DNA of 64,000 bases. Source: Pelagibacteraceae bacterium. Lineage in GTDB: Bacteria > Pseudomonadota > Alphaproteobacteria > Pelagibacterales > Pelagibacteraceae. Both the position numbers and the translations under genes were made by a program. The notes under the pieces were generated by a model. The model saw only the letters and a list, made by a program, of their open reading frames with translations, was not told where the DNA came from and did no database searches. Below, piece by piece: positions 38,634 through 62,801 of the stretch (within the stretch, counting starts at the first letter, position 1; each line of letters begins with the position of its first letter). The stretch is taken from the NCBI GenBank assembly GCA_008638015.1, contig VTPD01000001.1, positions 42,885-106,884 on the forward strand, written 5' to 3'.

Positions 38634-39656
38634 TTACAGCTCGCGAGAAAGTAATGCTGCGCCGTCAGCAAGCGCTTTGAGTTTAGCATTGGCAATTTCT
38701 CTTGGCATAGTGACCATGCCGCAATTAGTACAGCCAATTAAATGCTTTATACTAGTATACTTCAGAGCTTGTTTTAAAATATTTGCAACTTGTCTCGGAG
38801 TTTCTATTTTGTTTGTAGCAACATCAATTGCACCAACCATGATATCTTTTTTTTGTAGCAAACTAATAAGTTCCATTGGTACTCTTGAGTTAATACATTC
38901 AAGACTGACTTGATCAATTTTACTTTTGCTTAACAATGGAAACACTTTTTCATATTGGCGCCATTCTTTACCTAATGAATTTTTCCATTTAATATTTGCT
39001 TCAATTCCATATCCGTAACAAATATGCACAGCTGTTGTGCAGCGTACATTTTTAATTGCTCGCTCAAGTGTTTGAACGCCCCAGTCGTGCACTTCATCAA
39101 AAAAAACATTAAATGCTGGCTCGTCAAATTGAATAATATCAACACCAGCTTTTACTAATTCTTTCACTTCTTCATTTAATACTTCTGCAAATCTCCATGC
39201 TAATTTTTCCCTACTTTTGTAGTAATCATCGTATAGCGTATCGATCATTGTCATGGGTCCGGGCAAGGTAAATTTAATTGGTTTAGATGTTAGGCTTCGC
39301 AATAAACGAACATCATTTACAAATACTGATTTTTTTCTATTAATTTTGTCTACAACCATCGGTACAGCCGCATCGTATCTATCCCTGATACGAACCGTTT
39401 TTTTTCTTTTAAAATCTACACCTGATAAATTTTCTATAAAGGTAGTAACAAAATGTTGTCTAGTTTGTTCACCGTCTGTGATAATTGATATCCCGGCATT
39501 GATTTGATCACTGACAACAATTTTCATAGCATCTGCTTTTGCTTGATCAAGTTCTGTACCAGATAGCTTCCATTGTCCCCACAACTTTCCAGTTTCTGCC
39601 AACCAGGATGGTTTTGGCAAACTTCCAGAAATAGTTGTATGAATATTTTTTTTCAT
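38634..39656 (-). CDS. Core MetE-like methyltransferase (C-terminal MetE domain only)
   Basis: The 340-residue TIM-barrel protein matches only the catalytic half of cobalamin-independent methionine synthase (full MetE is about 750 residues). Zinc-ligand motifs are conserved: TAVHICYGYG (His, Cys), SLECINSRVP (Glu) and LIGCTNCGMVTMPREIA (Cys). The N-terminal part SGSLPKPSWLAE and GISIITDGEQTRQHFV also fit. It could be a methionine synthase with a non-folate or B12-protein methyl donor, or another thiol alkyltransferase of this fold. It is the last gene of the dctP-Q-M-MFS operon, 9 nt behind the MFS gene. Confidence 0.85.
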   Translation of the reverse strand: MKKNIHTTISGSLPKPSWLAETGKLWGQWKLSGTELDQAKADAMKIVVSDQINAGISIITDGEQTRQHFVTTFIENLSGVDFKRKKTVRIRDRYDAAVPMVVDKINRKKSVFVNDVRLLRSLTSKPIKFTLPGPMTMIDTLYDDYYKSREKLAWRFAEVLNEEVKELVKAGVDIIQFDEPAFNVFFDEVHDWGVQTLERAIKNVRCTTAVHICYGYGIEANIKWKNSLGKEWRQYEKVFPLLSKSKIDQVSLECINSRVPMELISLLQKKDIMVGAIDVATNKIETPRQVANILKQALKYTSIKHLIGCTNCGMVTMPREIANAKLKALADGAALLSREL

Positions 39657-39665
39657 GATCGGATC

Positions 39666-40880
39666 TTAACCTTTCTTATTTTTGACTACAAAGTAAATGT
39701 AGGAAAAAATATTGAGCATTAGCAGTATAAAAATTGCTACTCGAAAACTATTAACTTCTGAACATCCAAGTTTTTGGGCAAAATCAATTACGAGACCTAT
39801 GCCCCATTGTAAAATAAAAATTCCTATAAAGAATAACAAATTATGTGATGTCAAAGCTTTGCCGGCTAGGTGTGATGGAAAAGAAAGACCAATCGCTGGT
39901 TGGGTTAGTGCAAATACTACACAGCATAGACAATATAGGGTCCATAAATTTGCACCAGCTGCAGGTCCCATAATAATTATTATTGCTAACGAGATAAATG
40001 TGAAAGGTATTCCAATTTTTAATAGACGATTGGCATCGTATCCTAGTTTTAAAAGTTGAGGATTGATGTAGCCCCAGATCAGATAACCAAAGAGCATTAT
40101 AATATTAATTTGAAATAATCCTGATGCAGATTCTAATGGAGTATAGCCCGATACTCTAATCATCCATGGACCAGCCCACAAAGTAATGATGGAATAAAAT
40201 CCACCAACATTAAATAAAGCAATTGGAATTAAACTTTGAAAGTAACTGTTTTTCCAAATTGTAGATAACGAACCTTCTCTTTTAATTGTAGAGTTTTTAT
40301 CAAAATTCCAAGAAGGTGATTTTAATAAAATTAGGCAAATACAAATAAATGTTAAAAAAGCCAAACCAAGAAAAATAGTTCTCCATCCATAGAGGGGTAA
40401 GAAATATTGAACTGGAAGTGTAGATGATAACATTCCAATAGAACCAACCATTAACATCCAAGAGTTTGCCCTATGCTGATAAGTATCCTCCATCCAAACA
40501 CGATAACCTGTAAGCGGAGCCATCAAACATGCGCTAACACCTACACCAATTAAAACTCTACCTATAAAAAGGTTGGTGAAATTAGTGGCCAGGGCAAAGC
40601 ATAATATGCCAATAATGGCCAATCCTAAAAAAATAGTCACAACTTTTTTGGGTCCATATCTGTCTAAAAAATATCCTAGTGGTATCTGCATTGCTGCAAA
40701 CCCAATAAAATAGCCTCCCCCCAACAAGCCAAGTTCTCCAGATGTTAAATTAAACTCTGAACTTAATACCGGAGATAAAGTTGCAGTAACAGCTCGCAGT
40801 AACGTTGATAAAAAATATCCAAAAGCAAATATAAAAAATACAATGGTAATATGTTTTTTTGATAAAATTGCTTTTTCCAT
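39666..40880 (-). CDS. Major facilitator superfamily transporter
   Basis: The 404-residue protein has 12 predicted helices and the MFS motif GYFLDRYGPKKVVTIFLG after helix 2, preceded by GYFIGFAAMQIPL. Its substrate is not identifiable. It lies 5 nt downstream of the TRAP large permease and 9 nt upstream of the MetE-like gene, so all five genes probably form one operon. Confidence 0.9.
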   Translation of the reverse strand: MEKAILSKKHITIVFFIFAFGYFLSTLLRAVTATLSPVLSSEFNLTSGELGLLGGGYFIGFAAMQIPLGYFLDRYGPKKVVTIFLGLAIIGILCFALATNFTNLFIGRVLIGVGVSACLMAPLTGYRVWMEDTYQHRANSWMLMVGSIGMLSSTLPVQYFLPLYGWRTIFLGLAFLTFICICLILLKSPSWNFDKNSTIKREGSLSTIWKNSYFQSLIPIALFNVGGFYSIITLWAGPWMIRVSGYTPLESASGLFQINIIMLFGYLIWGYINPQLLKLGYDANRLLKIGIPFTFISLAIIIIMGPAAGANLWTLYCLCCVVFALTQPAIGLSFPSHLAGKALTSHNLLFFIGIFILQWGIGLVIDFAQKLGCSEVNSFRVAIFILLMLNIFSYIYFVVKNKKG

Positions 40881-40885
40881 AAAAT

Positions 40886-43534
40886 TTAAAAATGAAGGGA
40901 AATATCTTCATGATGAGCATTGCACTCTGCTACATAGATGGCTTGCTCTTTAGTTAAATTAGTTTGCGACCTCAAACCAATGGTATCTCTTATTTCTTTT
41001 TCGTATTTATTTAATGATGGTAACAGTTGTTGAAACGCTATCTCTCTCCATTTAATATCTTGTTTCAAAAGATCTAGCGCATTATTGTTTAAGGATCTAA
41101 TTTCTTCAATTGCATTATTTTTAGCTTTTTCAGTTGCTGCATAAATTGCATCAGACACACTTGCCATTCCGCTTAGCTTATCGGTTTGTTCTAAAATTTT
41201 ATTTAGTTTTTCATTAAGCTCTTCTTTAGATAATTTGAATAAATTATTATTTAACTGCTCTATTTCCGCTATAATTGAATTAATATTTTTTATATCTTGA
41301 ATTTCTTTTTTTAAGCTCATTAATTGCAAGTAACTTTCATCAGTATTTTTCATATATTGTTTTAAAGACTGCAAATATTCCTTTTGTAATTTTTTGTAGT
41401 TTGCATATTTGTCTTTCCATTCTTTAGGAATTTGATTTTGAATTTGTTGAATTTCTTTTTGTAAATCATTAATAGTATTTGTTATTTTTTGAATAGCGCT
41501 GGTATTTGTTTTTTCGTAAATTTTAATATCATCCTTCAAAATTTTTATTCTGTTTTCTATAAAATAAATTTGCCTTTGCAGTTTTCTTACGTTTGTATGC
41601 AAATCATAATAATCTTTAGAAAAATCATCTAATTTATTTTTTTTATTTTTAACATCGTCTACCATTGGAAATACTTGAAGAGCTAACCGTATATGGTTTT
41701 GTAGCAATTCTTTTTTATCTTGTGGCAAAAATGAAATGTCTAAATTTTTATTATTTTCAATTGATTGAATTAATTTTGATTTATCTTTATCAAAAATTCC
41801 AAATTGATAGTTAATGATACACTTTTCTAATTTTGGATTGGTTGGGGGAGGTGAAACATCCGATGTCAAATAAGATCTTGCTGGCAGATAATTGGCAATA
41901 CTAGGTAAATAACCTATGATTACCAATGCAAATAGCTGCAGACCAATAAAGGGTATTGCACCTTTCCATATTTCGGTTGTTTTGACTGCTGTTGGAGCCA
42001 CTCCTCTCAAATAAAATAACGAAAAACCAAAAGGCGGAGTTAGAAACGAAGTTTGCATATTTAACCCAATCATTACACCTAGCCACAAGGCAGTAATGTT
42101 TGCTGCAGGATCCAATAATAAAATTGGAGTAACAATTGGAATAACTACAATTGCAATTTCTAAATAATCTATAAAAAACCCAAGAATAAAAATTAAAGCC
42201 ATCACAACAATAAATTGTGTCCAAAAACCACCTGGTAAAGAAAGTAAAAATTCACGCACCAACTCTTCACCACCAAAAGCTCTAAATCCTGCCGTAAGCA
42301 TTGCAGCACCAATTAAAATGATAAAAACAAGAGTAGTGGTAATGGTAGTTTCGGATGAAACATCTCTAAGAGTATTATCAATTTTAAATGCTCTCCAAAA
42401 ACTCCAAATAATTGAAATAATTAAAGCTACAACAGCAATAGATGCAATGAAAACTCCAATTTGATTATAACTAGTTAGGGTTTGTTTAATATTCAAATTA
42501 AAAAAAGAATGAAGAACAAGAATAACAAAAGTGGATATGAGTGCGATGGTAGCTGGAGTGTAGGTGTGTTTTTTATCAGGATATAATTTATATCCAGCCA
42601 TGATAGTTGCTCCTATAGCACCAATAGCTCCTGCCTGGTTAACAGTTGCAATTCCATATAAAATTGATCCTAGGACAATTACAATTAATACCAATGGTGG
42701 TATCAAAGAAAAAAATACTTTTTTGTAAAAAGCTTTCTCAAAAGATTTTTCGATACTAAGTGGAGGAGCTGATTTTGGATTTAATAGAGCATAAATTAAA
42801 ACATACGAAACATATAATCCTACTAAAATTAATCCAGGAATTAACGAGCCTAAAAACATTTCTCCAGCACTAGTCGAGGTAACAGAAAATTGGCTTGGCA
42901 TTGTGCTTTCACCAGTAAACATTTTGTAGTCCTGGATCCGTAAAGAATTAGCAATGTCAGAAGCATTGGATAATTGATCAGCGATAATAATAAGTACAAT
43001 AGATGGTGGAATAATTTGTCCCAATGTTCCGGAAGCAGTGATAATACCAGTAGCTAATGATTGTTTATAATTGTTTCGAAGCATTGCTGGCAGAGAAATT
43101 AATCCCATCGCTATCACGGTTGCTCCAACAATACCTGTTGTGGCTGCTAATAAGCCACCAACTAAAATAACTGAAATACCAAGACCACCAGGAATCTTTC
43201 CAAATAATTGTCCCATGGTAATTAGTAATTCTTCAGCAATTTTTGATTTTTGCAGCATTAAACCCATGTAAATAAACAATGGAATTGCAATTAGAGTGTC
43301 TCTTTCGACATCCCAATAAGTACTTCTAAAATTAGTAATGGCCGAAGTAATCCAACCTATGGGCCCATCTTGGGTAAAATAAATAGAAGAATTTCCAGCA
43401 ATTAAATATCCACTAATACCTGCAACTGCCATAGTGATGATTGCTGCACCAGGCAATGCAAATGCAACTGGAAAACCGGAGGCTAGTGCGCTCGCCATAA
43501 CAAAAAGTAAAACGATGAGAAAAAAAACTTCCAT
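40886..43534 (-). CDS. dctM: TRAP transporter large permease DctM with a long C-terminal coiled-coil extension
   Basis: The first 550 residues are a DctM/large TRAP permease (FPVAFALPGAAIITMAVAG, GIVGATVIAMGLISLPAML, IIPPSIVLIIIADQLSNAS, GVMIGLNMQTSFLTPPFGFS). Residues about 565-882 have no membrane helix and are Lys/Gln/Asn-rich with long heptad-like runs (LQRQIYFIENRIKILKDDIK, LNEKLNKILEQTDKL). The whole is twice the size of the second DctM in this window (444 residues). No frameshift or domain join is visible; it is one open frame. It is translationally coupled to dctQ (1-nt overlap). Confidence 0.92.
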   Translation of the reverse strand: MEVFFLIVLLFVMASALASGFPVAFALPGAAIITMAVAGISGYLIAGNSSIYFTQDGPIGWITSAITNFRSTYWDVERDTLIAIPLFIYMGLMLQKSKIAEELLITMGQLFGKIPGGLGISVILVGGLLAATTGIVGATVIAMGLISLPAMLRNNYKQSLATGIITASGTLGQIIPPSIVLIIIADQLSNASDIANSLRIQDYKMFTGESTMPSQFSVTSTSAGEMFLGSLIPGLILVGLYVSYVLIYALLNPKSAPPLSIEKSFEKAFYKKVFFSLIPPLVLIVIVLGSILYGIATVNQAGAIGAIGATIMAGYKLYPDKKHTYTPATIALISTFVILVLHSFFNLNIKQTLTSYNQIGVFIASIAVVALIISIIWSFWRAFKIDNTLRDVSSETTITTTLVFIILIGAAMLTAGFRAFGGEELVREFLLSLPGGFWTQFIVVMALIFILGFFIDYLEIAIVVIPIVTPILLLDPAANITALWLGVMIGLNMQTSFLTPPFGFSLFYLRGVAPTAVKTTEIWKGAIPFIGLQLFALVIIGYLPSIANYLPARSYLTSDVSPPPTNPKLEKCIINYQFGIFDKDKSKLIQSIENNKNLDISFLPQDKKELLQNHIRLALQVFPMVDDVKNKKNKLDDFSKDYYDLHTNVRKLQRQIYFIENRIKILKDDIKIYEKTNTSAIQKITNTINDLQKEIQQIQNQIPKEWKDKYANYKKLQKEYLQSLKQYMKNTDESYLQLMSLKKEIQDIKNINSIIAEIEQLNNNLFKLSKEELNEKLNKILEQTDKLSGMASVSDAIYAATEKAKNNAIEEIRSLNNNALDLLKQDIKWREIAFQQLLPSLNKYEKEIRDTIGLRSQTNLTKEQAIYVAECNAHHEDISLHF

Positions 43535-44490
43535 TATGATGTACGTTTTAGAATTTGATTTAGGCTAGTTAAAATAAGACTAGCGAATTGAAAAATCATT
43601 GTGATTGCAAAGATAGCCAGAAATGCAGCTAGCAAATATTTTATATACATCCCAGAAACACCTTGCTGAGTTATTTCAAAACTTAAAACTGGAGCATTGA
43701 TAATACTGGTTCTTCCTTGTAGACCAAAAAATAAAGTAAGAGCACACAGTGGAATTCCAAACAATATAGATCCTGCTATGTTAGCTATTGCTTTTCCTTT
43801 TTCTGAAAATTTTACATATAAAATGTCTACACGGACGTGTCCGTCTTTAAGCAAAGTATAGCCGCTAGAAAATAAAAAAATAGCTGCATACCATAGTCGG
43901 ACTAAGTCACCCATAAAAGCTTGTTCGTAATAGAATACATATCTAGTAATCACTATGGCCGTTTCAGCAAAAACAACCAGAGTAGCAAACCAAATGAAGC
44001 CAGGTGTTTTTTTGATATAACCAATAATAAATCCAATACACGCAAGAGGTAAATGAATATACAAAACTCTCGATGAAGGTTTGGTAAAAAAATTTAAAGC
44101 AGCACCAGATAAAAAATAATCTAAAATTTTTTCACTGACTAATAATGAAATAATCACGTCCACAACTCCAATTAAAAAAATAGTCCAAAAAGCAGACCTG
44201 GCTACATAGCTTGAGAAATTGGAAAACGTGTTGGAGTAATCTAAAATTTTTGAATTATTAATTTTATATCCAGAATAAAAGCAGTAGGCGACTATTAAAA
44301 TATAAGACAGCCATTGAAGGGAAGATAAAATAATTTGAGTTGTAGAAAGAGATTTGAATGGTTTGAGCAAAGCCTCAATACCAGGCCATCCCAAATAAAC
44401 TGTAAGAATATTATTAAAGACAAAAATAATCGTTAGGTAGACGGTAAGAAAAGAAAAAATTGTAATAAAACTTTTAATCTGCGTATTCAT
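43534..44490 (-). CDS. dctQ: TRAP transporter small permease DctQ
   Basis: The ORF-track start (44,511) lies inside a terminator hairpin. The ATG at 44,488-44,490 (MNTQIKSFITIFSFLTVY) is preferred, giving 318 residues. It has more helices than minimal DctQ (about 7), a known variant of the small subunit, and carries the late pattern WYAAIFLFSSGYTLLKDGHVRVD. It pairs with DctM. Nothing resembling a ribosome site precedes it other than the U-rich end of the hairpin. Confidence 0.88.
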   Translation of the reverse strand: MNTQIKSFITIFSFLTVYLTIIFVFNNILTVYLGWPGIEALLKPFKSLSTTQIILSSLQWLSYILIVAYCFYSGYKINNSKILDYSNTFSNFSSYVARSAFWTIFLIGVVDVIISLLVSEKILDYFLSGAALNFFTKPSSRVLYIHLPLACIGFIIGYIKKTPGFIWFATLVVFAETAIVITRYVFYYEQAFMGDLVRLWYAAIFLFSSGYTLLKDGHVRVDILYVKFSEKGKAIANIAGSILFGIPLCALTLFFGLQGRTSIINAPVLSFEITQQGVSGMYIKYLLAAFLAIFAITMIFQFASLILTSLNQILKRTS

Positions 44491-44542: not shown

Positions 44543-45661
44543 TTACAGGCCTAAAACTCTGTTTCTTTGTTGCAGGTAAGCAATATCAGAAACGCTGTAA
44601 TATCCTCCAATTTCATTTCTAGCAGCTACAAAGCTATCGTGAACTTTTTTCGCCATAGCACTATTTGCTGTAACATCTTTAAATACTTCGTTAGCAGCTT
44701 TGCCCATGGCATCAAATACACGATTGTTAAATGAAAGCACTTGTACTCCTTGATTTTTTTTCAATCGAGTTAAAGCAGCTCCATTCTTCGCTAGGAATTC
44801 AGCCATCATTACATCATTCTCCATAGATGCAGCAGCTTCAATTAATAATTGATCTGCTTTTGATAAGCTGGAGAACCAAGTTTTGTTACAACCAATTGAT
44901 AACATCGATCCTGGTTCATGCACTCCCGCTGTATAAAGGTATTTAGTTGCTTCATAGAATTTCATGAACTCATCAGCAAATGGTCCAACCCACTCTGTAG
45001 CATCTATGTTACCATTCATAAGGTTTTCATAAATTTGACCACCTGGTAAGCTCACAACGCTTGCACCAAGTTTTGTCATCATTTGTCCACCCAGTCCTGG
45101 CATCCTGATTTTTAAACCCTTGAAGTCAGCTGGAGATTTGATTTGTTTTCTAAACCATCCTCCGCTTTGCACTCCAGTGTTTCCACACATGAAAGCTTTT
45201 AAATCATATTTGCCTGCAAGTTCATCCCAGAGCTGTTGTCCACCACCCCAACGAATCCATGCATTCATTTCACTGTAAGTTAAACCAAACGGTACTGTAC
45301 AGAAATATCCGTAAGCAGGATCTTTTGCTGTCCAATAATATTCAGCTCCATGATAAATTTGTGCTTTTCCAGAAGCAACATGGTCAAATGAGTCAAATGC
45401 TCCAACCCGTTTTCCTGCTGGATACAAAGTAACATTCAGTCTTCCACCTGACATCTCAGTTACACGTTTAGCAAATCTTGCAGCACCTACTCCAAGACCA
45501 GGAAAATTTTCTGGCCATGTCATGACCATAATAATTTCTTTACGCTCTGCAGTGATTGCTGGTGCCGCCAATGTACTTGCGCCTATTGCTAGTGCACCCG
45601 TTCCCAAGGCAGCTGTCTTCAAGAATTTTCTTCTTGAATTAGTTGTTTTGTTTTTTTTCAT
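44543..45661 (-). CDS. dctP: TRAP transporter substrate-binding protein DctP (Tat-exported)
   Basis: The 372-residue periplasmic protein has a twin-arginine signal (NSRRKFLKTAALGTGALAIG) and a DctP/TakP-like body: MTWPENFPGLGVGAARFAKR, GLKIRMPGLGGQMMTKLGAS and ENLMNGNIDATEWVGPFADE. The TATEWVGP-type loop and SCWW-like aromatic positions suggest a monocarboxylate or keto-acid ligand, but this cannot be settled from sequence. The start has AGGGGG 4 nt upstream. A palindrome lies 28 nt upstream of the ATG. Confidence 0.93.
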   Translation of the reverse strand: MKKNKTTNSRRKFLKTAALGTGALAIGASTLAAPAITAERKEIIMVMTWPENFPGLGVGAARFAKRVTEMSGGRLNVTLYPAGKRVGAFDSFDHVASGKAQIYHGAEYYWTAKDPAYGYFCTVPFGLTYSEMNAWIRWGGGQQLWDELAGKYDLKAFMCGNTGVQSGGWFRKQIKSPADFKGLKIRMPGLGGQMMTKLGASVVSLPGGQIYENLMNGNIDATEWVGPFADEFMKFYEATKYLYTAGVHEPGSMLSIGCNKTWFSSLSKADQLLIEAAASMENDVMMAEFLAKNGAALTRLKKNQGVQVLSFNNRVFDAMGKAANEVFKDVTANSAMAKKVHDSFVAARNEIGGYYSVSDIAYLQQRNRVLGL

Positions 45662-59641: not shown

Positions 59642-60748
59642 ATGAAAAAAGTACTAAGTATTTTCTTAGGAATTTTGTTTGCTGTTTCATTTTCAGCGAC
59701 AAGTTCCTTTGCGAAAACTAAAACTTTGAAATGTCAAACGGTGATCAGTGCAAAAGCTGATGAAGTTGTGATGTTAAAAGATTTTGGTCAAACAGTTACA
59801 GATCTAACTGGTGGTTCAGTCAAATTCGAAATTTTACCTGCAGGAACAGTAGTCGGAGTTAAAGAAACTTTAGACGCAGTTGACAAAGGTTTAATTGATT
59901 GTGGATTTGCTTGGACACATTACTGGTCAGGAGAACATCCAGCTGCAATGTTATTTGGTTCGCCAGTAGCAGGAGCAGGTGTTGGTATTGACAACATAGC
60001 ATTCTTATCTTGGTTCCAATATGGAGGTGGTAAAGCACTTTACAACCAGCTTTGGAAAGAAATGAAAAGAGATGTTCATGGTTTAATGCTTCAACCCGTT
60101 GGTCCAGAAGCTTTAGGTTGGTTCAAAGAGCCAATTAAGAGCATGGCTGACTTTAGAAAGTATAGATTTAGAACACCTCCAGGAATTCCTGGTCAAACGT
60201 ACAAAGACATCGGAGTTGCTTCAGTTGCAATGGGTGGAGGAGATATTCTTCCAGCATTACAAAAAGGAACAATCGATGCTGCGGAGTGGTGCTGTCCTAA
60301 ACCAGACAGTGTTTTTGGATTTCAAAAAGTTCTTAAACATTACTACTTACAAGGTCTTCACCAAGTTGTCGTGAATGCTGACTTGTACATAAATGGAAAA
60401 GTTTGGAGAGGCTTAACAAAGCATGAAAGAAAAGCAATGGAAGTTGCTGCTGATGCTTCATTAATAAAATCTATGAGCTATAGAATTTACGAAAATGGAA
60501 AAGCTTTGAAAGACTTAACAGAAAATCATGGTGTAATTCTTCATGATACTCCTTCTGATTATTTTCCAGCGTACATGGCTGCTGCTAAGAAAAGTTTAGA
60601 AACAAATGCTAAAAATAATGCATTTTTTGCTAAAGTTTGGCAGTCACAAAAAGATTTTGCTGACATCGCTGTTCCTTTCTGGAGCGGTGCTCAAATGTCA
60701 AATGCAAAACTTGGAATGGCACACGCTGACACTTTAAAAAAGAAGTAG
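59642..60748 (+). CDS. dctP: TRAP transporter substrate-binding protein DctP (second system)
   Basis: The 368-residue protein has a Sec signal (FLGILFAVSFSATSSFAKT) and DctP motifs: VKFEILPAGTVVGVKETLDA, MADFRKYRFRTPPGIPGQTY and ALQKGTIDAAEWCCPKPDSV. The CC pair after DAAEW is unusual and may form a disulfide near the ligand pocket. The start has AGGGGG 5 nt upstream. Adjacent genes suggest a sulfonate substrate such as DHPS or isethionate (inference). It differs from the first DctP in using Sec rather than Tat. Confidence 0.94.
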   Translation: MKKVLSIFLGILFAVSFSATSSFAKTKTLKCQTVISAKADEVVMLKDFGQTVTDLTGGSVKFEILPAGTVVGVKETLDAVDKGLIDCGFAWTHYWSGEHPAAMLFGSPVAGAGVGIDNIAFLSWFQYGGGKALYNQLWKEMKRDVHGLMLQPVGPEALGWFKEPIKSMADFRKYRFRTPPGIPGQTYKDIGVASVAMGGGDILPALQKGTIDAAEWCCPKPDSVFGFQKVLKHYYLQGLHQVVVNADLYINGKVWRGLTKHERKAMEVAADASLIKSMSYRIYENGKALKDLTENHGVILHDTPSDYFPAYMAAAKKSLETNAKNNAFFAKVWQSQKDFADIAVPFWSGAQMSNAKLGMAHADTLKKK

Positions 60749-60774
60749 TTTTAAATATCAAGTAAATTAAGATT

Positions 60775-60808
60775 AAAGCGGATCTCTCTTAAAAAGAAGA
60801 TCCGCTTT
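60775..60808 (+). terminator. Hairpin after the second dctP
   Basis: A perfect 11-bp stem (AAAGCGGATCT / AGATCCGCTTT) has a 12-nt loop and starts 26 nt beyond the dctP stop and 20 nt before dctQ. The plus strand downstream is only weakly T-rich (GATTAATTAG), so partial read-through to dctQM is expected. Confidence 0.75.
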
Positions 60809-60828
60809 GATTAATTAGATAGACAACA

Positions 60829-61470
60829 ATGGCAAAGAATAAAAAACAAATTAAGAAACCTAAAAAGCAAGAATTAAAAATTGACTTTGCCGATGAATTA
60901 ATTGCTGGCAGAAAACAAGGCACTGGCAAAATGCCAAAAGACATGCCTAATTGGATGTCTTTCTTAATCACTAAAATTGATATTTTTAGCAGAAAAACTG
61001 GGGAAATTGTTTGTTGGATCACCATACCATTAATTTTTGCCATGGTGTACGAGGTAGTTGCCAGAAAGTTTTTTTTAGCTCCGACCATTTGGGCATACGA
61101 TATGAGTAGATTTTTATACGGAGCATTATTTATATTAGGATCAGCCTATGCTTTATCAAAAGGCATTCACATAAGAGCAGATTTTTTATACAGAAATTTT
61201 ACAACGAAAGCACAAGGGCAAATAGATACTATTCTATATTTAATTTTCTATTTTCCAGGTCTTATTTTCTTTTTCTATATGACAAACGGTTTTGTCCTAG
61301 AATCTATCATGAGGGATGAACGAGGAATGGATACTGCATGGATGCCAGTATTGTGGCCAATTAAATCCTGTCTATGGTTCGGGATATTATTTTTATTAAT
61401 CCAAGGTATTTCAGAAGTATTAAAATCATACTGGGCTGCCAAGAAAGGTAAATGGCCTGACGAAGAATGA
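60829..61470 (+). CDS. dctQ: TRAP transporter small permease DctQ (second system)
   Basis: The 213-residue protein has a Lys-rich cytosolic N-terminus of about 60 residues, then four helices with the DctQ motifs FLYGALFILGSAYALSKGIH and IRADFLYRNF. A WMPVLWPIKSCLWFGILFLL segment ends the membrane part. It overlaps dctM by 4 nt. No Shine-Dalgarno is seen upstream. Confidence 0.92.
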   Translation: MAKNKKQIKKPKKQELKIDFADELIAGRKQGTGKMPKDMPNWMSFLITKIDIFSRKTGEIVCWITIPLIFAMVYEVVARKFFLAPTIWAYDMSRFLYGALFILGSAYALSKGIHIRADFLYRNFTTKAQGQIDTILYLIFYFPGLIFFFYMTNGFVLESIMRDERGMDTAWMPVLWPIKSCLWFGILFLLIQGISEVLKSYWAAKKGKWPDEE

Positions 61471-62801
61471 TTACTGAATTTATAAGTCCAGAAATGTTAG
61501 GCATACTCCTAATTGGAGTGATGTTGTTTGCAATATTTATTGGTTTTCCAATTTCCTTTACTCTAATTTTTTTAGGATTTGTTTTTGGATATTTAGGATT
61601 TGGTAAATTAGTTTTTTACTTAATGACCCTGCAGTTCTCCATGGTCATGACCGAACAGGCTCTCGCCGCCGTCCCACTCTTTGTCTTCATGGGAATCATG
61701 ATGGAAAATGCAGGATTGATGGAGCGATTATTTTCAGCAGTTGAGTTGATGTTATCAAGAGTTAGAGGAGCATTGTTTTATGCTGTTCTTTTTGTATCGG
61801 TAATTTTTGCAGCAGCCACCGGGATTGTTGGAGCCTCAGTAACCATTCTTGGTATTATGGCAGCTAAATCCATGAACAAATCTGGTTATGATGTAAAACT
61901 TTCAGCAGGTGTAATTACAGCTGGAGGAACTTTAGGTATTCTTATCCCACCAAGTATTATGTTGGTTGTAATGGGACCAATTATGGAAATTCCAGTCACA
62001 GACTTGTTTTCTGCAGCAATTATTCCTGGAATTATGCTAGCTGTTTTATATGCAGCTTATGTCACGTTACGATGTTGGATGGATCCGAAATTAGGACCAG
62101 TTTTGCCGATGAAATTACGAGCAGGTTCTATGAAGGAAGTTTGGGTTGAATTTATTTTAGGATTAGTACCACCTGCAGCATTAGTATTTTCTGCATTAGG
62201 AAGTATTCTTTTAGGATTAGCTACTCCAACAGAAGCAGCTGGTTGCGGAGCTTTTGGTTCACTCGTTCTTTGTATTGCTTATAAAAAATTGACGATGTCT
62301 AATTTAAAAGATGCATTAATTAAAACACTTGAAATTACTGCATTAATTATGTTTTTAGTTGCAGCCTCTAATTTCTTTGGTGCTGTTTTTGCTAGATTGG
62401 GAACTCCAACGCTTCTTACTGATTTTCTTTTAAGTTTAGAAATGAACAAATATTTAATTTTAGCCATAGTAATGGTTGCAATCTTTTTATTAGGATGGCC
62501 GCTAGAGTGGGTACCAATTGTTCTTATTATTATTCCGATTATTTTACCGCTAATTGAAGGATTAGGATTTAATTTAACGTGGTTTGCAATCTTAGTTGCA
62601 ATTAATTTACAAACCGCCTGGCTATCACCGCCAGTTGCCTTGTCGGCATATTTTTTAAAAGCGGTTGTTCCACAGTGGGATCTAAAAGATATTTATTTAG
62701 GCATGATGCAATTTATGGTTATACAAATAATAGGTTTATTATTAGTAATTATATTTCCAGAGCTTGCATTGTGGCTACCAACATACTTAGGAGGAAAATA
62801 A
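61467..62801 (+). CDS. dctM: TRAP transporter large permease DctM (second system)
   Basis: The 444-residue permease has the standard DctM size and motifs: FIGFPISFTLIFLGFVFGYL, GIVGASVTILGIMAAKSMN, GGTLGILIPPSIMLVVMGP and AINLQTAWLSPPVALSAYF. It has none of the C-terminal extension of the first DctM. Its last codons contain the ribosome site AGGAGG of the next gene, so hpsN is part of the operon. Confidence 0.95.
   Translation: MITEFISPEMLGILLIGVMLFAIFIGFPISFTLIFLGFVFGYLGFGKLVFYLMTLQFSMVMTEQALAAVPLFVFMGIMMENAGLMERLFSAVELMLSRVRGALFYAVLFVSVIFAAATGIVGASVTILGIMAAKSMNKSGYDVKLSAGVITAGGTLGILIPPSIMLVVMGPIMEIPVTDLFSAAIIPGIMLAVLYAAYVTLRCWMDPKLGPVLPMKLRAGSMKEVWVEFILGLVPPAALVFSALGSILLGLATPTEAAGCGAFGSLVLCIAYKKLTMSNLKDALIKTLEITALIMFLVAASNFFGAVFARLGTPTLLTDFLLSLEMNKYLILAIVMVAIFLLGWPLEWVPIVLIIIPIILPLIEGLGFNLTWFAILVAINLQTAWLSPPVALSAYFLKAVVPQWDLKDIYLGMMQFMVIQIIGLLLVIIFPELALWLPTYLGGK

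Follow-up and report, generated by a model that had tools for sequence, protein, structure and literature searches.

A C-terminal helical domain on the large subunit of a TakP-type TRAP transporter of Pelagibacteraceae may form a periplasmic arm

The analysed window, a stretch of 64,000 nucleotides from the genome of a Pelagibacteraceae bacterium (1.09 Mb, 67 contigs), encodes two large permease subunits of TRAP transporters that differ twofold in size. One of them (61467-62801) has the ordinary length of 444 aa. The other is encoded by a single frame on the minus strand (40886-43534) that runs uninterrupted from the ATG to the stop codon over 882 codons. A sequence-only reading of the window had noticed this difference and had described an extra soluble tail of about 320 residues; the segment singled out, 40886-41842, corresponds to residues ~565-882. 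This raised the question of what the additional part of the permease is, where it resides, and what it might do. The parts of the protein are:

40886..43534, minus strand, DctM-type TRAP large permease with C-terminal tail (882 aa; PF06808, E=2.7e-61)
41879..43534, minus strand, membrane core, residues 1-552 (matches to SiaQM/IseQM structures; loop charges)
41828..41878, minus strand, conserved linker, residues 553-569, PPP-x-NP-x-L (mean top-residue frequency 0.75)
40889..41827, minus strand, C-terminal tail, residues 570-882, all-helical and predicted to be periplasmic (alignments, AlphaFold2, loop charges)

The assignment to the DctM family was clear, with a PF06808 score of 208.1 bits at a curated cut-off of 23.8, and a Pfam scan confined the match to the membrane part. 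The score with TIGR00786 was 255.9 bits (E=5.5e-76), just below the cut-off of 268.45, which the ordinary DctM also failed to reach (267.8 bits). The structure was predicted with AlphaFold2 from an alignment of 42 sequences (mean pLDDT of 80.5 overall, mostly about 80-93 in the tail, and lower in places in the membrane core). In the model the last membrane helix extends to about residue 542 and a short helix to residue 557, and a fold search with the full model matched 9pym, 7qha_B (TMt 0.83) and 8thi. The membrane core is homologous, in sequence and in predicted fold, to the SiaQM/IseQM transporters (7qha, 8thi, 7qe5, 8y4w, 9pym), which are also of the DctP type. In contrast, the solved large subunits, with 427 aa (7qha_B) or 616-664 aa (fused QM chains), have no tail, and they match up to about profile position 552, which is where the tail of the window protein starts. 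In the linker that follows, P562, P563, N566 and L569 are invariant in the 42 sequences.

The tail could not be assigned to a described domain. Scans of Pfam and NCBIfam yielded no curated family above the cut-off, and the matches below the threshold were SMC/Rad50-like or coiled-coil-like and scattered over unrelated families. The PDB contained no relative of the tail by sequence or by a fold search with the full model, and a known PDB domain was rejected as an explanation, the sequence matches being unrelated coiled coils (such as hemagglutinin and myosin constructs) with E values of at least 0.002. Neither a description of the tail nor an experiment on any of the tailed proteins was found in the open-access literature; it may be described elsewhere. 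According to a study on VcGluQM from 2024, DctP-type TRAP transporters had not been reported to have a C-terminal extension (PMC11574862).

A long, Lys/Gln-rich reading frame could be an artefact, and the earlier reading had itself named a sequencing error or a fusion with a neighboring gene in this strain only as the result that would speak against a genuine tail. Both were excluded, because conserved tails occur in many genomes. It aligned end to end in seven relatives with 25-37% identity, and with the resulting eight-sequence alignment as a query it was recovered from 31 genomes in a sample of 385 from the Alphaproteobacteria. Tailed DctM proteins were present on other SAR11 genomes too, with tails of 304-331 aa. 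In a genome collection, at least 555 candidate stretches code for a relative of the tail. Nearly all of the best 80 of these 555 belong to Pelagibacteraceae/SAR11, the exceptions being a Rhodobiaceae MAG and another MAG that is labelled Gammaproteobacteria. The nearest tailed relatives among the best 80 are from Candidatus Fonsibacter and Pelagibacteraceae, so that the window's genome is taken to be of the SAR11 type. Searching the same collection with a single tail sequence gave no confirmed match, whereas the alignment did match.

The distribution of the tail is patchy. Of 148 related genomes searched with the whole protein, a minority within the family had full-length or near-full-length matches (47-60% identity), as did G142, which is an alphaproteobacterium of a different order with a genome of 5.4 Mb. 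The five further genomes assigned to the same genus yielded only a match to an ordinary DctM. A phylum-wide sample of 399 genomes contained the tail in seven alphaproteobacteria, including the window's genome and G247, and one partial match in another class (E=1.7e-4) that resembles a chance coiled coil. Plasmid records covered at most 76% of the query, none reaching 80%, and thus a full-length tailed permease was not seen among them. A tree built from the membrane core placed 21 tailed sequences in a single clade with support of 100/100, separate from 30 close tail-less relatives; judged from this tree, the tail clade has one origin. Broken-frame copies were also observed, one near a contig end (L008, 749-3130) and three split over two frames (L047, L054, L071), and these are probably assembly or frameshift defects.

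The composition of the tail in the window's genome bore out the description as Lys/Gln-rich (K 43, N 31, Q 25, L 36 and I 35 of 323 residues). An origin as a chance coiled coil from AT-rich Lys codons was rejected, as genomes of 2-5.6 Mb also carry the tail. Its net charge ranges from -21 to +34 across the members, which counts against the AT-rich Lys-codon origin, and invariant C, G, R and F positions count against a chance coiled coil. Conservation within the tail was measured on an alignment of 42 diverse tailed members, and the elements that stood out are:

41819..41821, minus strand, C572, invariant, at the membrane end of the tail (42 of 42)
41516..41722, minus strand, long outgoing helix, residues 605-673, ~69 aa, roughly 100 A (AlphaFold2; period 3.45)
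41579..41614, minus strand, conserved patch on the outgoing helix, Y642, V649 and R650 (95-98% conserved, n=42)
41297..41503, minus strand, return helix, residues 678-746, with a break at about 701-704 (AlphaFold2; period 3.55)
41414..41434, minus strand, conserved patch opposite, on the return helix, P703 (98%) and W706 (95%) (n=42)
40889..40990, minus strand, conserved C-terminal segment 849-882 with G853, R855, Q857, C871, H875, D877, S879 and F882 (alignment)
40922..40924, minus strand, C871, invariant, near the C-terminus (42 of 42)

The tail is 321-331 aa long in 41 of the 42 members and 304 aa in the remaining one (L167). Its ends are conserved and its body is variable: mean pairwise identity was 0.66 in the linker and 0.57 in the last 32 residues (851-882), compared with 0.27-0.28 in the body of the arm, and the tip region of the predicted hairpin was among the less conserved parts. 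Each of the 42 tails contains exactly two cysteines, at the positions of C572 and C871 (84 in total), and there is no other cysteine among the 13,682 tail residues. The motif C-x3-H-x-D-x-S at the end of the tail is almost invariant. In the predicted structure the helix 605-673 is followed by a turn, by the helices 678-700 and 705-746, and by shorter helices up to residue 873. The hydrophobic period of 3.45-3.55 residues in both long helices was reached by none of 500 shuffles, so that the heptad-like, coiled-coil character proposed earlier was substantiated by periodicity as well as by the model. Insertions and deletions occurred at residues 677-678, 768 and 806-809, all of which are loops in the model, and at 780-788, the edges of a short loop. 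If the hairpin folds about residue 675, counting residue numbers places Y642, V649 and R650 opposite P703 and W706. Taken together, a confidently modelled long helical hairpin with additional small helices is a well-supported prediction for the fold of the tail.

On which side of the membrane the tail resides had been left open by the earlier reading, and the likely answer is the periplasm. The M domain of SiaQM comprises ten transmembrane helices and two hairpins, and in the cryo-EM study of FnSiaQM the C-terminus was placed in the periplasm, a location that its authors stated to be deduced from function (PMC11801797). For the tailed permeases, the loop charges of the core obey the positive-inside rule when both termini are outside: the longer predicted inner loops contain 0.17-0.23 K+R per residue and the outer loops 0.00-0.12 (42 sequences). 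The prediction that the tail is periplasmic is well supported, because this charge pattern, the homology to SiaQM and the published SiaQM topology agree. In addition, a cysteine pair that is kept without exception fits an oxidising compartment. A cytoplasmic tail is a general possibility that gains some room from the functional basis of the SiaQM assignment; it is nevertheless very improbable, as the charge pattern, the homology and the invariant cysteines all oppose it.

The genes next to the tailed dctM encode the other two subunits of a DctP-type tripartite system, with PF04290 and PF03480 genes adjoining it, followed downstream by a transporter of another family:

44543..45661, minus strand, DctP substrate-binding protein, TakP-like, with TAT signal (PF03480; TIGR01409)
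43534..44490, minus strand, DctQ with extra N-terminal helices, 318 aa from the ATG (PF04290 covers residues 178-305 only)
39666..40880, minus strand, MFS transporter, 5 bases downstream of dctM (Pfam scan)

The closest solved chains to the window DctP were 4pet, 5cm6, 2hzk (TakP) and 7ug8 (ketoacid-binding), and TakP (2hzk) aligned to residues 10-358 with E=3e-61, the long C-terminal region included. Because of this closeness to TakP, 4pet, 5cm6 and a ketoacid-binding chain, an alpha-keto acid or a similar carboxylate is the likely substrate, as far as sequence relationships can tell. In its substrate-binding protein, the system resembles TakPQM of Rhodobacter sphaeroides, an alpha-keto acid TRAP transporter. 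The order dctP-dctQ-dctM with a TakP-like DctP was found at nearly all tailed loci where the contig allowed it to be seen; the exceptions are L157 and L168, which differ as to where dctP is located or whether it is present.

The window DctQ is enlarged as well, with ~160 additional N-terminal residues (~3-159) that are predicted to form four helices ahead of the usual four-helix part. In its model (mean pLDDT 84.8) the long helices 3-31, 50-76, 79-119 and 138-159 precede the last four, and a fold search with this model gave no significant match. The DctQ frame was enlarged in every complete tailed locus examined (305-440 aa in uncut loci), while those of the nearest tail-less relatives were mostly 171-243 aa, with longer frames, which are no more than putative extensions, in L191 and L205. 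Tail-less relatives can also have a TakP-like binding protein, as in L175, where it is 45% identical to the window DctP, and in G144. Therefore, a TakP-like or dimeric binding protein does not require the arm.

Further observations concern the neighborhood. Most SAR11 loci likewise have an MFS gene after dctM, with an identity of roughly 50-60%, but none was observed in the non-SAR11 lineages examined. In the window the MFS gene is followed by a Meth_synt_2 gene (38634-39656, catalytic domain of cobalamin-independent methionine synthase), and L032, L170 and L174 have a gene with 70-72% identity to the latter in the vicinity of this TRAP operon. The ordinary DctM of the window belongs to a second TRAP system at 59642-62801 (DctP2, DctQ2 and DctM2), and a related ordinary system lies directly upstream of the tailed one in many SAR11 loci. 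Possible counterparts in HTCC1062 ('Ca. Pelagibacter ubique') are SAR11_0864 (hypothetical) and SAR11_0865 (mannitol/chloroaromatic compound transport), the mRNAs of which are listed as lower in sulfur-limited stationary phase (PMC5069961).

Two further comparisons were made. VcGluQM, a TAXI system, has a C-terminal extension with a periplasmic "claw" that was modelled to touch the substrate-binding protein and was proposed to stabilize its docking (PMC11574862). The claw (DUF3394) and the tail are thus both C-terminal extensions of TRAP permeases with a periplasmic soluble domain. However, the claw is mainly beta sheet and is inserted between the second and the third of its three added membrane helices (PMC11574862), while the tail is all-helical, free-ended and part of a DctP-type system, and a Pfam scan revealed no match to DUF3394 in the tailed permease. 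The second comparison is with the sister clade (L213, L214, L215, L218), which is nearest to the tail clade in the tree (91/96). It consists of DctP/DctQ/DctM systems with DctM frames of 705-788 aa, in which the extra residues are internal insertions and not a C-terminal tail, and it shares the enlarged DctQ (309-351 aa frames) with the tail clade. The soluble insertion may be another periplasmic domain. A strict coupling between enlarged DctQ and tail was rejected, since the sister clade also has an enlarged DctQ.

It is well supported that the tail is one conserved domain, a helical hairpin on the periplasmic side with paired cysteines. In the arrangement that is proposed here, the conserved proline linker after the last membrane helix would lead into the long helix, which would reach roughly 100 A outward; the chain would turn and return antiparallel, pass through a few short helices, and the conserved C-terminal segment would come back to the start of the tail. 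There, we infer, a disulfide between C572 and C871 forms and staples both ends into a closed base beside the permease. The resulting arm may lie over the pore, a tentative placement given the lower confidence of the model in parts of the core. It might contact the substrate-binding protein, and would most likely help to capture, orient or retain it over the elevator; this contact, drawn by analogy, is the weaker step. The holding role is proposed because of the analogy to the VcGluQM claw and the orientation of TakP dimers, whose second monomer projects upward from the membrane in modelling (PMC9352664). The chances appear about even that the tail is a disulfide-stapled periplasmic arm on a TakP-type large subunit that helps to dock or hold the binding protein on the permease. 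The broader interpretation, that it represents a widespread undescribed periplasmic domain which holds a TakP-like, probably dimeric, binding protein and was acquired independently of the TAXI claw, is plausible, with chances somewhat below even.

The arm could alternatively join TRAP units, or the enlarged DctQ, in the periplasm as a scaffold that does not contact the binding protein directly. The coiled-coil periodicity and the enlargement of DctQ in every complete tailed locus would fit such a role, and dimers of HiSiaQM via the Q subunit have been reported (PMC10942642). Yet the model packs the tail with good confidence as an intramolecular hairpin, and the enlarged DctQ of the tail-less sister clade shows that the two are not inseparable, so that oligomerisation was judged rather unlikely. 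The length of the hairpin, with its 69-residue helix, might also suggest that the arm extends to a further partner, such as peptidoglycan or an outer-membrane protein, and places the transporter under a porin. This is improbable in view of the tip, which is among the less conserved parts, and of Pfam and NCBIfam scans that revealed no peptidoglycan-binding or outer-membrane motif.

Oligomerisation and tethering had been suggested together with sensing in the sequence-only reading. If the cysteine pair and the arm gated transport in response to redox state or a ligand, the invariance of the pair and the almost invariant end of the tail would be accounted for. A periplasmic cysteine pair without exceptions is, however, more simply explained as a structural disulfide, and neither a known sensor domain nor a signalling neighbor was found, which makes gating still harder to credit than a reach through the envelope. 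The suggestion of a sensor thus lost ground, and an arm that is stapled and acts around the binding protein is tentatively favored instead, because no signalling partner and no sensory domain were found.

How binding proteins dock to TRAP transporters, and why some of them are dimers, is an open mechanistic question. If the proposed role is true, some secondary transporters would bring their own built-in docking arm. Relatives with and without the tail that have similar binding proteins, in SAR11 and in other alphaproteobacteria, constitute a natural experiment.
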